Source: an uncultured SAR86 cluster bacterium (lineage in GTDB: Bacteria > Pseudomonadota > Gammaproteobacteria > Magnimaribacterales > D2472). Taken from it: a DNA stretch of 64,000 bases. Below the pieces are notes generated by a model. That model saw only the letters and a program-made list of their open reading frames with translations, had not been told where the DNA came from and made no database searches. Made by a program: the position numbers and the translations under genes. The stretch is taken from positions 62,001-126,000 of the forward strand of contig CACECK010000003.1 in NCBI GenBank assembly GCA_902557965.1, read 5' to 3'. This document shows, one piece after another, positions 945 to 35,246 of the stretch; the first letter of the stretch is position 1; the number at the start of each line of letters is the position of its first letter.

Positions 945-2345
945 TTACAAACCAATAAAATCATAAGAAAGTGCAATCTTTTCAATTGCAGCCTTGTATG
1001 CAGCTGTTCTGAAGTCTGGAATTTTCTCATTTTCAAGAAATTCTTTTTTTACACTTTGAAATCCATCTATCATCATGTCATCTAGACCAGACCTGATTAA
1101 ATCTATCTCTTCAATACCATCTGCAAATTTTTCTTTGTATTGTTTTGGCATGCTTTTGCCTGTCATTGCTTCTATTGCCTCAACAAGATTATTAAGTTGA
1201 ATTTGATTTCTTCTTTTTTCAAGCCTTCCAAATCTAATATGTCTTAAATTCTTTACCCATTCAAAATAACTCACTGCAACACCGCCACCATTAGCTAAAA
1301 TGTCTGGTATTACAAATATTTTTTTCTTATTTAAAATTTGATTAGCTTTGTAACTTATTGGGCCATTTGCAGCCTCAACAATTAAATTTGCAGAAATCTC
1401 ATCTGCATTTTTTTCAGTTATAACGTTTTCTCGAGCTGCAGGAATCAATACGTCACAATTTCTTTTTAATAATAGAGATGAATCCTTTATATATGTTGCT
1501 TTTGGATAATCTTGAAAACTATTATTTTTTATAAAATATTTCTTAGCATGTTCAACATTAATTCCATCTTCATTAAAGATACCCCCATTATGTTCAGCTA
1601 TACCAATTAAGTTTAGACCATCATCTTCTGTTAGAAATTTAGCTAGGTTATAACCAACATTTCCAAAACCTTGCAAAATAAAAGATTTATTAGCAAGATC
1701 ATTATCAAGCTTAGTTAATTTGAGCAATTCAGGATTTTTAAAGAATTCTCTTACGATATATTGAACACCTCTTCCAGTTGCTTCTTCTCTTCCTACAAGA
1801 CCATTTTTACTTGTAGGTTTACCCGTAACACATGCCGCACCATTAATATCAGAGGGATGAATTTTTCTATATTCATCTGCTATCCACGCCATTTCTCTTG
1901 AAGAGGTCCCTATATCAGGAGCAGGAACATTCATTGAAGGACTTATTAAATCCCTTTTAATGAGTTCCTGAGCAAATCTTCTAGTTATTTTTTCTAACTC
2001 ATTTTCATCCCATTCAGCTGGATTAATTCTTAAACCACCTTTTGAACCGCCATACGGTACATTGATAATTGCACATTTGTATGACATTAATGCTGCCAAA
2101 GCCTCAACTTCTTCGGCATGAGTATCTATATCAAACCTTATTCCACCTTTAGTTGGTTCCATGTGTTCGGAATGAACAGAACGCCAACCTTCAAAGGTAA
2201 AAATCTTACCTTTAAGTCTTACACCAAACCTGACAACGTATGTAGAGTTACAAGTAATTATTTTGTTGGCAAGCCCATCAGATAAATCAGAATGTTTAAG
2301 AGCTTTGTTAACATATTTCGTAGTGTCTGAAAGAAAGTTATTCAT
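945..2345 (-). CDS. gdhA: Glu/Leu/Phe/Val dehydrogenase family, probable glutamate dehydrogenase
   Basis: 466 aa. Interconverts glutamate and 2-oxoglutarate plus ammonia with NAD(P). The dimerisation/catalytic half carries EPTKGGIRF and PYGGSKGGLRINP, whose Lys is the catalytic-type lysine of the family. It is followed by the Rossmann half (FILQGFGNVGYNLAKFL) and the late family motif ANGGGVAVSYFEW. Upstream on the minus strand an AAGGA Shine-Dalgarno lies about 10 nt before the ATG. Substrate specificity (Glu versus Leu/Phe) cannot be settled by eye. Length and motifs fit GdhA best. Confidence 0.9.
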   Translation of the reverse strand: MNNFLSDTTKYVNKALKHSDLSDGLANKIITCNSTYVVRFGVRLKGKIFTFEGWRSVHSEHMEPTKGGIRFDIDTHAEEVEALAALMSYKCAIINVPYGGSKGGLRINPAEWDENELEKITRRFAQELIKRDLISPSMNVPAPDIGTSSREMAWIADEYRKIHPSDINGAACVTGKPTSKNGLVGREEATGRGVQYIVREFFKNPELLKLTKLDNDLANKSFILQGFGNVGYNLAKFLTEDDGLNLIGIAEHNGGIFNEDGINVEHAKKYFIKNNSFQDYPKATYIKDSSLLLKRNCDVLIPAARENVITEKNADEISANLIVEAANGPISYKANQILNKKKIFVIPDILANGGGVAVSYFEWVKNLRHIRFGRLEKRRNQIQLNNLVEAIEAMTGKSMPKQYKEKFADGIEEIDLIRSGLDDMMIDGFQSVKKEFLENEKIPDFRTAAYKAAIEKIALSYDFIGL

Positions 2346-2393
2346 ATATTTAAAATCCTTACTAATAATGACACAGTAGCAATAATAAAAAAA

Positions 2394-2421
2394 TAGATAA
2401 TAATTATTTTTAAACTATAAT
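2394..2421 (+). promoter_or_regulatory. putative promoter of tRNA-His / tig
   Basis: TAGATA (2394-2399), a 16-bp spacer and a perfect TATAAT (2416-2421) lie 12 nt before the tRNA 5' end. The short stretch after the -10 is G/C-containing (AGCGAG), as in growth-rate-controlled tRNA promoters. Called by eye; the -35 is only a 4/6 match. Confidence 0.55.
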
Positions 2422-2433
2422 AGCGAGTCTTGT

Positions 2434-2511
2434 GGCGGGCGTAGCTCAGTTGGTTAGAGCGCTGGATTGTGGCTCCGGAGGCCGTGGGTTCGAACCCCAT
2501 CGCTCGCCCCA
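2434..2511 (+). tRNA. tRNA-His (GTG)
   Basis: A cloverleaf can be drawn. The acceptor 5' strand GGCGGGCG includes the extra G(-1) and pairs over 8 bp with CGCTCGCC, with C73 opposite G(-1), the identity hallmark of tRNA-His. The anticodon loop TTGTGGC (2467-2473) gives GTG at 2469-2471, and the T arm contains GGTTCGAACC. The CCA end is encoded (2509-2511). The tig ORF in the track starts inside this tRNA, which is an artefact. Confidence 0.97.
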
Positions 2512-2529
2512 ATTAACATGGAAAAAATT

Positions 2530-3825
2530 ATGAAAGTTAGTATTAAAAAATTAAAAGATTTGGAAAGAAAAGTAACAATAGCTGTTCCAGTCGATGAGTA
2601 CCAATCTAAATTCAATACAAAAATTAAAAATATCAAAACTAAAGCAAAAATAGATGGCTTTAGAAAAGGAAATGTACCTAATGATGTTTTAGAACAAAGA
2701 TATGGAGCCTCAATCCATGGCGATGTCGTTAATGAATTAATACAAGATTCCTATCCAAAAGCTATAACAGAGAACAAAATAAGGCCTGCCTCATCTCCTC
2801 AAGTCACAATTGATAGTGAAGATCCAAAGAAACCATTAACTTATTCAGCAGTAATCGAAGTTTTTCCAGATATCAAACCAAAATTTTCTCGATGGACTAA
2901 TTATGAAGAATTTAATATTGAAATTGATGAGTCTGATATAGATCTAGCAATAGCCGATATCAAAAAAAGATATGGTGAGTGGAATGATGTAGATCGAAAA
3001 TCTAAATTAGATGACCAAGTAATTATTGATTTTCTTGGAAAGATTAATGGCGAAGAGTTTGAGGGTAATTCAGCTAATGATTTTAACCTAATCCTTGGAA
3101 GTAAATCTATGATTCCAGGTTTTGAGGATCAGATTATAGGAAAAAAACCATCTGAATTTCTAATTAAATGTGTTTTTCCTGAAGACTATTTTAAAAAGGA
3201 TCTTGCAAACGTTGAAGCAGAATTTGAAATCAAGTTAAAAAAAGTTCAAGAAATATCTGAAGCTAAGATAGACAAAGATTTATTTGAGAAACTCCAAATG
3301 GAAATTAAAGAAGAGTCTGAGTTTAGAAATGAAATAACAAGCAGAATGGAAAATGAAGTAAAGATCCAAGAAAGTGAATTAACTAAAGAATCCATGTATG
3401 AAGCTATGCTTAAAATAAATAAATTTAGCGCACCAAAGTCAACTATTAACGAACAGGCTGATTTAATGCGAAAAGATGCTTTAATGAGAATAGGTCACAC
3501 AGAAGAAAATGCTGGAGACGATTTATTTCCAATTGATGCATTTATGGAAAAAGCTGAGAAAAGGGTTAGATTGGACCTACTTTTTGCTGAGTTAATCAAA
3601 CATTTTGAAATTACTGTTGTCAAAGAAGACATCGATGCATTTATTGAGAAAGAATCATTACGTTATAAAGACTCAGAGCAATATAAGAAATGGATTGCAG
3701 GTCAACCTCAACAACTTGAGCAATTTAAAATGATTGTTTTAGAGGAGCAATTGGTTGAAAAATTAAAAAATGCACTTAAATCAAAGAAGAAAGTGATAAA
3801 ATTTTCAGAACTAGCAAATAAATAG
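2530..3825 (+). CDS. tig: trigger factor, ribosome-associated chaperone / prolyl isomerase
   Basis: 431 aa from the ATG at 2530 (MKVSIKKLKDLERKVTI). The ORF-track start at 2467 is a TTG inside tRNA-His, and the ATG at 2518 lacks a ribosome site, whereas a GGA lies ahead of 2530. The N-terminal ribosome-docking domain has the signature GFRKGNVP. The FKBP-type isomerase domain follows (VIIDFLGKINGEEFEG, then MIPGFEDQIIG), and the C-terminal part is a long charged helical chaperone domain. It binds nascent chains at the ribosome exit. It lies 18 nt after the tRNA-His CCA end and 9 nt before clpP. Confidence 0.95.
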   Translation: MKVSIKKLKDLERKVTIAVPVDEYQSKFNTKIKNIKTKAKIDGFRKGNVPNDVLEQRYGASIHGDVVNELIQDSYPKAITENKIRPASSPQVTIDSEDPKKPLTYSAVIEVFPDIKPKFSRWTNYEEFNIEIDESDIDLAIADIKKRYGEWNDVDRKSKLDDQVIIDFLGKINGEEFEGNSANDFNLILGSKSMIPGFEDQIIGKKPSEFLIKCVFPEDYFKKDLANVEAEFEIKLKKVQEISEAKIDKDLFEKLQMEIKEESEFRNEITSRMENEVKIQESELTKESMYEAMLKINKFSAPKSTINEQADLMRKDALMRIGHTEENAGDDLFPIDAFMEKAEKRVRLDLLFAELIKHFEITVVKEDIDAFIEKESLRYKDSEQYKKWIAGQPQQLEQFKMIVLEEQLVEKLKNALKSKKKVIKFSELANK

Positions 3826-3834
3826 GTACGTATA

Positions 3835-4437
3835 ATGTCAGATTTTCAACAAGCTCTTATCCCAATGGTTATTGAACAAACACCAAGAGGTGAAAGATCT
3901 TTTGATATATATTCAAGGTTACTTAAAGAAAGAGTTATATTTTTATCTGGACCAATTGATGACTATATTTCTAATTTAGTAGTTGCTCAATTATTATTTC
4001 TAGAATCAGAAAATCCTGAAAAAGATATTTCTATTTATATTAATTCACCTGGCGGAAGTATTTCTGCAGGGCTAGCTATCTATGACACCATGCAATTTAT
4101 AAAACCATCCATTTCAACAATGTGTATTGGTCAGGCGGCAAGCATGGGAGCTTTGCTTTTAGCTGGAGGCGATCCAAAAAAAAGATTTGCTCTTCCAAAC
4201 TCAAGAATTATGATTCATCAACCTTTGGGTGGTTTCCAAGGCCAGGCATCAGATTTTGAAATACATGCAAAAGAAATCTTACATATGAAAAAAATTGTAA
4301 ATGAGATTCTTGCTAAGCATACGGGACAAACAATCAAAAAAATTGAAAAAGATACAGATAGGGACAATTTTTTAGATGCCAAATCTGCAAAATCCTACGG
4401 TATCATTGATAGTATTTTAGAAGAAAGGAATTCTTAA
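3835..4437 (+). CDS. clpP: ATP-dependent Clp protease, proteolytic subunit
   Basis: 200 aa serine peptidase forming the tetradecameric chamber of ClpXP. The triad is recognisable as Ser103 ([12 protein letters not shown]), His128 (IMIHQPLGG) and Asp177 (DTDRDNF). Their spacing of 25 and 49 residues equals that of the E. coli enzyme. The N-terminal [20 protein letters not shown] is the usual propeptide/mature junction region. It lies in the standard tig-clpP-clpX-lon order, with clpX starting 1 nt after its stop. Confidence 0.97.
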
Positions 4438-4438
4438 A

Positions 4439-5695
4439 ATGACAGAAGAAACCTCTACAGATAAATTGCACTGTTCATTTTGTGGGAAATCTCAAGATGA
4501 GGTAAAAAAGCTTATTGCTGGACCAAGTGTCTATATTTGTAATGAGTGTGTTGATTTATGTAACGACATAATAGAGGAAGAAATTAAAAATGATGAAGAA
4601 TCTCCATATGATGAGGTCCTTTCTCCATTAGAGATTTTTAATAAGTTGGATGAGTATGTAATAGGCCAGGAAAAAGCTAAGAAAGTTTTGTCAGTAGCTG
4701 TTTACAATCACTATAAAAGACTTAGGAAACCAAATTCAAAATCTGATATTGAGCTTCAAAAAAGTAATGTTCTTTTATTGGGGCCAACTGGAAGTGGAAA
4801 AACGCTCCTTGCTCAAACATTAGCAAAGATTTTAAATGTACCATTTACAATTGCAGACGCTACTACATTAACGGAAGCAGGGTATGTTGGAGAAGATGTT
4901 GAGAATATAATCCAAAAACTCCTTCAAAAGGCTGATTATGATCCTGAAAAGGCTGAGCTTGGAATAGTATACATTGATGAAATAGACAAAATTGCTAGAA
5001 AATCTGATAATCCATCGATTACAAGAGATGTATCTGGAGAGGGTGTTCAACAAGCACTTTTAAAACTTATAGAAGGAACAATAGCTTCTATTCCGCCTCA
5101 AGGTGGAAGAAAGCATCCACAACAAGAATTTATTCAAATTGATACCGCTAATATCTTATTTATTTGTGGAGGCGCATTTTCTGGATTAGATAAAGTAATT
5201 GATCAAAGAACTAATAAAACTGGTATTGGTTTCAGCGCTGAAGTAGATAATAAATCTAACGTCACATCATTAAATAAGAATATTGATGATCTAGAACCAG
5301 AAGATCTTGTGAAGTATGGTTTAATCCCTGAATTTGTTGGAAGATTGCCAGTTATTTCAAATCTTCATGAACTTGATGAAAGCGCTTTAGTTAGAATACT
5401 CAAAGAGCCAAAGAATGCCTTAGTCAATCAATACAAACATTTATTTGAAATTGATGATGTCGAATTAACTTTTAGAGATGAAGCCTTAAAAGAAATTGCT
5501 AAGCAAGCTATTAACAGGAAAACCGGTGCAAGAGGCTTAAGATCGATCATGGAAGAGCTTTTGATGGAAACTATGTTTGAACTTCCAAATGAAGATCTAG
5601 ATAAAGTAATCATTGATGAAAAGACTGTAGCGTCTAAAAATGAGCCTATAAAACTCCTCAAAACAAAAAACAAAAAAACATCATCAGGCAATTGA
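4439..5695 (+). CDS. clpX: ATP-dependent Clp protease ATP-binding subunit ClpX
   Basis: 418 aa AAA+ unfoldase. The N-terminal zinc-binding domain has four Cys at 12, 15, 34 and 37. Walker A is GPTGSGKT (115-122) and Walker B is [10 protein letters not shown]. The RKH pore loop ([10 protein letters not shown]) and the IGF tripeptide loop that docks to ClpP (KTGIGFSAE) are both present, so it should partner the ClpP encoded just upstream. A good Shine-Dalgarno (AAAGGA) inside the clpP 3' end sets the start. The C-terminal sensor-2 region ([13 protein letters not shown]) is intact. Confidence 0.97.
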
Positions 5696-5725: not shown

Positions 5726-8122
5726 ATGAGCAATCTTAAATCTGACTTACCTTTAATTCCATTAAGAGACGTTGTTGTATTTCCAGGAATTGTTACAACA
5801 TTATTTGTTGGTAGAACTAAATCTGTTGAAGCTCTAAATGTAGCAATGGCATCAAATAAAAAACTTGTACTAGTCAGCCAGAAAGATGCAGCAAAAGAAG
5901 ACCCAGATATTTCTGATTTATATCAATTTGCATCAGTGAGCAATTTACTTCAGTTAATTAAACTTCCAGATGGAACCATGAAAGTTTTAGTTGAGGGTCA
6001 CAAAAGATGTTCAATTGAAAAAATTATAGAAAAAGACTCATACACTGTAGCAAGAGTAATCGAACAAGAAGATTCAATTTTAAAAGATAATGAATCAGCT
6101 AACTTAGTTAGATTAATCAAAGCAAAATTTGAGGATTACATAAGTATTACAAAAAGAATTCCACCAGAGATCGTTTCAACTGTGGATTCATTAGATGATT
6201 TATCCAGATTAATAGACACAATTACGGGTCATCTGCCAATTGATACATCAAAAAAACAAGATATTTTAGAAAGTTTTGATCTAAAAGACAGAGCCGAAAA
6301 AGTACTAACTTTTATTGAATCACAACTTGATGTGGTTGATGTTGAGAAAAAAATAAGAGACAGAGTAAAAAAACAAATGGAAAAGTCTCAAAGAGAATAT
6401 TATTTAAATGAACAAATTAAAGCAGCTCAAAAAGAACTTGGTGAAATTGGTGAAGAAGGAGATGAATTAGAAAATTTAGAGAAAAAAATCCATGAAGTTG
6501 GAATGACCAAAGAAGCATTAAAGAAGGCTAAAAGTGAGTTAGCAAAATTTAAACATATGGCGCCTTCATCTGCAGAGGCTTCAGTAGTAAGAACATATCT
6601 TGATTGCTTGGTGGACGTTCCATGGAAAAAGAAATCAAAGATAAAAACAGATATCAAAGCTTCTATGGATATTCTAGAAGAAGATCATTACGGACTTGAA
6701 GAAGTTAAAGAAAGAATAGTTGAGTACTTGGCAGTTCAAAAAAGAGTTAAATCTATGAAAGCTCCAGTTTTGTGTCTAGTAGGTCCCCCCGGAGTCGGCA
6801 AAACATCTTTGGGTGAGTCTATTGCAAGAGCAACTAATAGAAAATTTGTAAGAATGTCTCTTGGTGGTGTGAGAGATGAATCAGAGATTAGGGGACATAG
6901 GAGAACGTATATTGGATCAATGCCTGGAAAAATAATACAGAAATTAAGTAAAGTTGGTGTAAAAAATCCATTATTTCTTTTAGATGAAATTGATAAAATT
7001 GGAATGGATCATAGAGGAGATCCGGCTTCTGCATTATTAGAAGTTCTTGATCCAGAGCAAAACAATACATTCAGCGATCATTATCTTGAGGTCGATTACG
7101 ACTTATCTGAGGTTATGTTTGTATGTACAGCAAATAGTTTAAATATTCCTACTCCTTTATTAGATAGGATGGAAATTATTAGGATTCCAGGATATATAGA
7201 GGATGAAAAAATTAATATCGCAAATAAATATCTACTACCAAAACAGATGTCTAGAAATGGCTTAAAGGAAAAAGAAATTAAATTTGGAAAAGATGTAATG
7301 CTTTCTTTAATAAGATACTACACAAGAGAGGCTGGGGTTAGAGGCCTAGAAAGACAAATAGCAAAGATATTAAGAAAAGTTGTAAAAGATAGATTAATAA
7401 ATGATAAACCTGACTCTAAAGCAACTAGCGTTACAGCAAAGAATATTGAAAAATATTCTGGTGTGCGAAAGTTCAAATATGGAATTGCTGAAAAAGATAA
7501 TGCTGTTGGTCAAGTAACAGGCCTTGCATGGACTGAGGTGGGTGGTGAACTTTTAACAATAGAAGCCTCTCATATAGATGGTAAAGGTAGAGTAATAAAG
7601 ACTGGCTCATTGGGTGATGTTATGCAGGAATCAATTCAGGCTGCATTAACCGTTGTTAGATCTAGGGCAGAATCGCTTGGAATTAAACCAAATTTCTATG
7701 AAAAATATGATGTTCATATTCATGTTCCTGAGGGAGCAACGCCTAAAGATGGGCCAAGCGCGGGGGGTGCAATGGCAATCTCGTTGATATCAATTTTTAC
7801 AGGTATTCCTGTTAAAGCTGATACTGCAATGACTGGTGAAATTACTCTTAGAGGGCAAATTCTTAAAATTGGTGGATTGAAAGAAAAACTTTTAGCTGCA
7901 AAAAGAGGCGGAATTAAAAATGTAATCATCCCCAAGGAAAACGAACCAGACTTACAAGAAATACCTGATCAAATAACAAAATCATTGAACATTATTCCAG
8001 TTGAGTGGATTGATGATGTAATTTCAGCTGCACTTATAGAAGAACCAACCCCAGCATCAAAAAAAATCAAGGCACAGAAATCTAAAAATTCTACTAAATC
8101 TGACAATAAGGCAACTCACTAA
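5726..8122 (+). CDS. lon: ATP-dependent endopeptidase La (Lon)
   Basis: 798 aa, with the three Lon parts. The N-terminal substrate-recognition domain begins LPLIPLRDVVVFPG. The AAA+ domain has Walker A GPPGVGKTS and Walker B LFLLDEIDKIG. The C-terminal protease domain has the Ser-Lys dyad at Ser678 (PKDGPSAGGAMA) and Lys721 (IGGLKEKLLAAKRGG). It degrades misfolded and regulatory proteins in the cytoplasm. A Lys/Ser-rich tail of about 25 residues follows the conserved part. It lies 30 nt after clpX with its own likely promoter. Confidence 0.97.
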   Translation: MSNLKSDLPLIPLRDVVVFPGIVTTLFVGRTKSVEALNVAMASNKKLVLVSQKDAAKEDPDISDLYQFASVSNLLQLIKLPDGTMKVLVEGHKRCSIEKIIEKDSYTVARVIEQEDSILKDNESANLVRLIKAKFEDYISITKRIPPEIVSTVDSLDDLSRLIDTITGHLPIDTSKKQDILESFDLKDRAEKVLTFIESQLDVVDVEKKIRDRVKKQMEKSQREYYLNEQIKAAQKELGEIGEEGDELENLEKKIHEVGMTKEALKKAKSELAKFKHMAPSSAEASVVRTYLDCLVDVPWKKKSKIKTDIKASMDILEEDHYGLEEVKERIVEYLAVQKRVKSMKAPVLCLVGPPGVGKTSLGESIARATNRKFVRMSLGGVRDESEIRGHRRTYIGSMPGKIIQKLSKVGVKNPLFLLDEIDKIGMDHRGDPASALLEVLDPEQNNTFSDHYLEVDYDLSEVMFVCTANSLNIPTPLLDRMEIIRIPGYIEDEKINIANKYLLPKQMSRNGLKEKEIKFGKDVMLSLIRYYTREAGVRGLERQIAKILRKVVKDRLINDKPDSKATSVTAKNIEKYSGVRKFKYGIAEKDNAVGQVTGLAWTEVGGELLTIEASHIDGKGRVIKTGSLGDVMQESIQAALTVVRSRAESLGIKPNFYEKYDVHIHVPEGATPKDGPSAGGAMAISLISIFTGIPVKADTAMTGEITLRGQILKIGGLKEKLLAAKRGGIKNVIIPKENEPDLQEIPDQITKSLNIIPVEWIDDVISAALIEEPTPASKKIKAQKSKNSTKSDNKATH

Positions 8123-35170: not shown

Positions 35171-35246
<76 letters not shown>

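Follow-up and report, generated by a model that had tools for sequence, protein, structure and literature searches.

How is a chaperone gene expressed when it begins almost immediately behind a tRNA gene? In the window analysed here, i.e., a whole stretch of 64,000 nt of DNA from an uncultured SAR86 bacterium, the gene encoding trigger factor (tig), the chaperone that nascent chains encounter first, follows tRNA-His(GTG) on the same strand. A preliminary description of this DNA proposed that both genes probably share one transcript, and that cutting at the tRNA 3′ end would create the 5′ end of the tig mRNA, linking the expression of the chaperone to tRNA processing and growth-rate control. 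In such an arrangement, the synthesis of a ribosome-bound chaperone would be linked to that of a tRNA by a single predicted transcript, in bacteria that are abundant in ocean surface water and, in the form of tRNA-Leu(TAG)-tig, in most of the sampled families of the Gammaproteobacteria. The latter form makes the linkage directly testable in cultured members of the class that carry it.

The features of the locus are collected in Table 1; they come from an assembly of 1.05 Mb in 22 contigs that is 82% complete. The 18 nt counted previously between the encoded CCA and the tig start codon, as well as the TATAAT ahead of the tRNA, are found as described. The tRNA scores 65.6 bits against the Rfam tRNA model, and Rfam gave no further RNA element at 1900-3000. 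Besides the canonical tig start, an alternative in-frame ATG exists at 2518, 6 nt past the CCA, which among relatives is present only in the closest one (L009/L023). After tig come clpP, clpX, lon and hupB, in this order, lon being a candidate member of the same predicted transcript. The divergent glutamate-dehydrogenase-like gene is outside the tRNA-His-tig unit and constitutes its upstream border; it is also divergent from tRNA-His in genomes G011 and G015 and in a tig-less family described below. The sole other tRNA of the window, tRNA-Ala(GGC) at 35171-35246, has no same-strand coding sequence close downstream.

Table 1. Features of the tRNA-His-tig locus, in window coordinates.
Feature	Position	Strand	Evidence and remarks
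Glutamate-dehydrogenase-like gene	945..2345	-	Divergent; separates tRNA-His from the old Pro-Arg tRNA pair
Promoter block	2386..2421	+	A-tract, TAGATA 2394-2399 (-35-like), AT-rich spacer, TATAAT 2416-2421 (-10); consensus scan, conservation
Discriminator with the expected start of transcription and a short 5′ leader for RNase P removal	2422..2433	+	Start site predicted
tRNA-His(GTG)	2434..2511	+	ARAGORN 2435-2511 plus G-1 at 2434; encoded CCA 2509-2511
Spacer ATTAACATGGAAAAAATT, 18 nt	2512..2529	+	Putative processing zone, AU-rich, past CCA; Shine-Dalgarno-like GGA at 2520-2522, with 7 nt left to the ATG
tig, trigger factor, 431 aa	2530..3825	+	TIGR00115, 1.6e-101
clpP	3835..4437	+	TIGR00493, 2.2e-99; 9 nt past tig stop
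clpX	4439..5695	+	TIGR00382, 2.8e-197; 1 nt past clpP stop
lon	5726..8122	+	NF008053, E=0

The arrangement TAGATA-16-TATAAT (2394-2421), with its spacer of 16 nt, matches the promoter consensus at 10 of 12 positions, a score within what chance gives in AT-rich DNA (9 sites observed versus 11.3 expected). From the glutamate-dehydrogenase-like gene to tig, the sites reaching at least 9/12 are this one and weaker ones near 2327-2369. The match score alone is thus insufficient, and the significance of the promoter stems from the block being conserved in the genus and single-copy in each genome. Indeed, in 15 loci of the genus the block from -48 to -13, AAAAAATAGATAATAATTTTnTTTAAACTATAATA, is nearly invariant: pairwise identity, taken per 10 nt, is 0.77-0.89, whereas it is about 0.31 immediately upstream and the first 60 nt of tig reach 0.78. 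At up to 0.89, the block is the most conserved non-tRNA DNA at the locus. It precedes tRNA-His even in species with a different upstream gene. Moreover, it occurs once per genome (at most 3 mismatches) in six genomes, and a repeated regulon motif was accordingly rejected. The conserved block, over 2386-2415, exceeds a minimal promoter, and AAAAAATAGATAATAATTTT is near-invariant; a UP element or an activator site within this interval is possible. As for growth-rate control of the tRNA-His-tig promoter, it is a guess, hinted at by the GC content of the last 12 nt before the tRNA, 55% genus-wide versus 7% in the preceding block. GC-rich discriminators as a general property of SAR86 tRNA promoters, which could have supported such control, show up as a weak trend in the SAR86 tRNA-promoter set (36% versus 31% GC at control TATAAT-like sites).

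Between tRNA-His and tig, the spacer follows one layout in the genus: AU-rich sequence, mostly 4-8 nt long, leads to a Shine-Dalgarno-like motif, and the ATG comes 4-10 nt further on. Apart from the Shine-Dalgarno, the spacer sequence is not conserved in the 15 loci. The motif starts 0-9 nt past the CCA overall and 0-2 nt past it in the relatives of family f2. No terminator was found between tRNA-His and tig in a scan of 1800-4500. The RNA downstream of the CCA (spacer plus tig start) is predicted to be almost unstructured (69 nt, -1.2 kcal/mol). That the tig start is hidden in a fold was accordingly rejected, the tRNA plus start folding no more stably than shuffles.

The adjacency of both genes is conserved in the order. 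tRNA-His is next upstream of tig in 22 of the 22 SAR86-order genomes with a detected tig, with gaps of 13-19 nt in the 15 loci of the genus and of 10-18 nt in most relatives of families f2 and f3 (longer in L016 and L018). Completeness is 72-80% for the same-genus genomes with no tig match. Family f4 differs: in four of its genomes, 91-97% complete (G020, G023, G026, G029; L115-L117, L123-L125), tig has no match, and in the three with clpP found tRNA-His lies directly before clpP-clpX, which suggests that tig was lost from a locus otherwise retained. One f4 locus (L123) presents a TATAAT-like box inside the 110-nt gap before clpP. Altogether, the short genus gaps, the conserved promoter, the conserved adjacency and the lack of internal promoter or terminator matches in our scans lend good support, on genomic grounds, to the shared transcript that was first proposed, and we regard co-transcription of tRNA-His and tig as highly probable.

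Beyond the order, a survey of 90 other gammaproteobacterial genomes from many families (L025-L114), biased to best-scoring tig genes, revealed a same-strand tRNA at most 460 nt before tig in 82, with a median gap of 80 nt; in 80 genomes it is Leu(TAG). Terminator-like and promoter-like sites occur in five and four of these gaps, respectively. Many of the genomes present the order Pro(TGG)-Arg(TCT)-His(GTG)-Lys(CTT)-Leu(TAG)-tig, Lys being sometimes absent, and within SAR86 the f3 genomes retain (Pro)-Arg-His-tig. In the genome of the window the Pro and Arg tRNAs are found some 5 kb upstream (L120); G015 has its Leu(TAG) elsewhere. Because of these class-wide clusters, the order kept in f3 and the displaced Pro, Arg and Leu(TAG) tRNAs, the SAR86 tRNA-His-tig pair reads as what erosion has left of an ancient tRNA-headed tig operon of the Gammaproteobacteria. 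The class-wide link appears to be undiscussed in the searchable literature: our search returned no paper on it, although subscription literature was mostly beyond its coverage, so that absence is unproven. In E. coli K-12, tig is preceded by bolA, at 343 nt, and by no tRNA; the missing arrangement in this best-studied model may be the cause of the silence.

Besides being ancient, the arrangement belongs to a genome where tight packing of tRNAs and coding sequences is general, two points that the preliminary description had not envisaged. In genome stretches of G000 and G015 (L126-L163), where starts were assigned by an ATG/ORF rule (ORFs of at least 80 aa) and not by gene calls, a coding sequence starts at most 30 nt downstream on the same strand for 12 of 33 tRNAs in G015 and about 10 of 26 in G000. 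With names assigned by eye, the tight pairs include tRNA-Thr-tuf and tRNA-Trp with secE-like, tRNA-Gln with prs-like and tRNA-Met with rimP-like ORFs. Since around one third of SAR86 tRNAs are so packed, the short tRNA-tig gap, taken alone, is a sign of streamlining, and it may have arisen in this way without being a specific device; a stronger argument for the unit than gap length comes from the conserved promoter and synteny. Several SAR86 tRNAs (Asp, Cys, Arg, Leu(TAA), Ser(TGA)) are followed after 6-14 nt by a coding sequence lacking a visible Shine-Dalgarno; a cut at the CCA of such pairs would yield nearly leaderless mRNAs.

The explanation that we favor, and that we hold as likely when taken as a whole, is that of an inherited remnant working as one tRNA-His-tig unit that is processed 3′ of the tRNA. 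tRNA-His(GTG) would be transcribed together with tig, and very likely with clpP-clpX, from the strong-looking promoter at 2386-2421. RNase P would cut the 5′ end of the tRNA, while an RNase E-type endonuclease would cut the AU-rich spacer just past the CCA, freeing the tRNA and leaving a tig mRNA whose leader, no longer than 18 nt, retains its Shine-Dalgarno. As comparison with the class shows, streamlined SAR86 has kept in this unit part of an older gammaproteobacterial order, Pro(TGG)-Arg(TCT)-His(GTG)-(Lys)-Leu(TAG)-tig-clpP-clpX. The anatomy of the unit and its conservation are likewise observed, whereas the transcript, the cut and any coupling to growth rate are inferred. In E. coli, RNase E cuts tRNA precursors aided by adjacent single-stranded regions (PMC3985628). 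The enzyme is encoded in four of the four near-complete SAR86 genomes tested, and had no match in the 82%-complete assembly of the window. The AU-rich single-stranded spacer, the downstream Shine-Dalgarno in most loci and RNase E in relatives make it plausible that tRNA 3′-end processing produces the tig 5′ end, as originally suggested; given co-transcription, we consider this source of the end probable. In f2 relatives, a cut a few nucleotides 3′ of the CCA could remove the Shine-Dalgarno, and its start at 0-2 nt implies there either a cut exactly at the CCA or translation from uncut RNA.

This last option leads to an alternative in which translation of tig starts on tRNA-tig RNA that is still uncut. 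An initiating ribosome would then contend with the tRNA 3′ nuclease over the same 10-20 nt, and each molecule would act first as tRNA or first as message. The ribosome footprint, with a Shine-Dalgarno 0-9 nt past the CCA (0-2 in f2), would indeed overlap the cutting zone, but the 4-8 nt that separate both in most genus members leave room for a cut that spares the motif, and we judge this option unlikely for the locus. Its extension to a control device in most of the Gammaproteobacteria, in which the rate of tRNA 3′ maturation would set the amount of translatable tig mRNA, with that competition as its SAR86 form, is a little less likely still. That tig is transcribed independently, from a promoter of its own inside or upstream of the tRNA, would find some support in the bolA-tig arrangement of E. 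coli K-12, which shows that other solutions are possible, and in class relatives with gaps above 150 nt and promoter-like sites. However, the consensus scan gave no match of at least 9/12 from the tRNA -10 to tig, in agreement with the early remark that the gap is too short for a promoter; the tRNA fold constrains the tRNA body, and the genus gap is just 13-19 nt. A tig promoter in the tRNA or the gap was consequently rejected, and independent transcription in general seems very improbable.

A different question is whether the junction regulates anything. The transcript could be shared and tig mRNA nevertheless be a passive by-product of streamlining and inherited gene order, with the usual enzymes maturing the tRNA and no meaningful tie between tRNA processing and the chaperone level. 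This possibility is compatible with the anatomy of the processed unit proposed above, from which it differs on regulation only. It agrees with the coding sequences found within 30 nt of about one third of SAR86 tRNAs, with a spacer in which nothing but the Shine-Dalgarno is conserved, and with a nearest tRNA that varies by clade, Leu(TAG) in most and His in SAR86. Conversely, most sampled families of the class have kept the tRNA-tig link and the SAR86 promoter is unusually conserved, both of which speak against a passive junction. On balance we lean slightly towards passivity, and a real regulatory coupling of tig to tRNA processing appears unlikely.

Operons headed by tRNAs are not new in themselves. 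In metY-rimP-nusA a single tRNA precedes a protein operon; SAR86 has a comparable pair, tRNA-Met(CAT) with a rimP-like ORF (assigned by eye) close behind, whereas tRNA-His-tig involves a different tRNA and different genes. In thrU-tyrU-glyT-thrT-tufB of E. coli and Salmonella, the tRNA genes head an operon that ends with the gene of an abundant, translation-linked protein, and a single promoter region lies before them (PMC6134099). The same traits are seen at tRNA-His-tig, where a same-strand tRNA lies directly upstream, a predicted promoter is found solely before the tRNA and no internal terminator is predicted; in both cases the gene of an abundant, translation-linked protein follows the tRNA. 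SAR86 itself retains tRNA-Thr(GGT)-tuf, with a gap of 28-30 nt. Unlike in the tufB operon, the passenger of tRNA-His is a ribosome-associated chaperone and not EF-Tu, and a single tRNA is left; furthermore, the tufB operon is backed by expression data, the SAR86 unit being predicted from sequence. Finally, argX-hisR-leuT-proM of E. coli yields one tRNA precursor that is cut by RNase E (PMC3985628), and its Arg, His, Leu and Pro tRNAs are of the kinds present in the Pro-Arg-His-Lys-Leu-tig cluster, although in E. coli they are unlinked to tig, which there follows bolA. tRNA-headed protein operons are thus already established, and what is new in the present case is a chaperone as the passenger gene.
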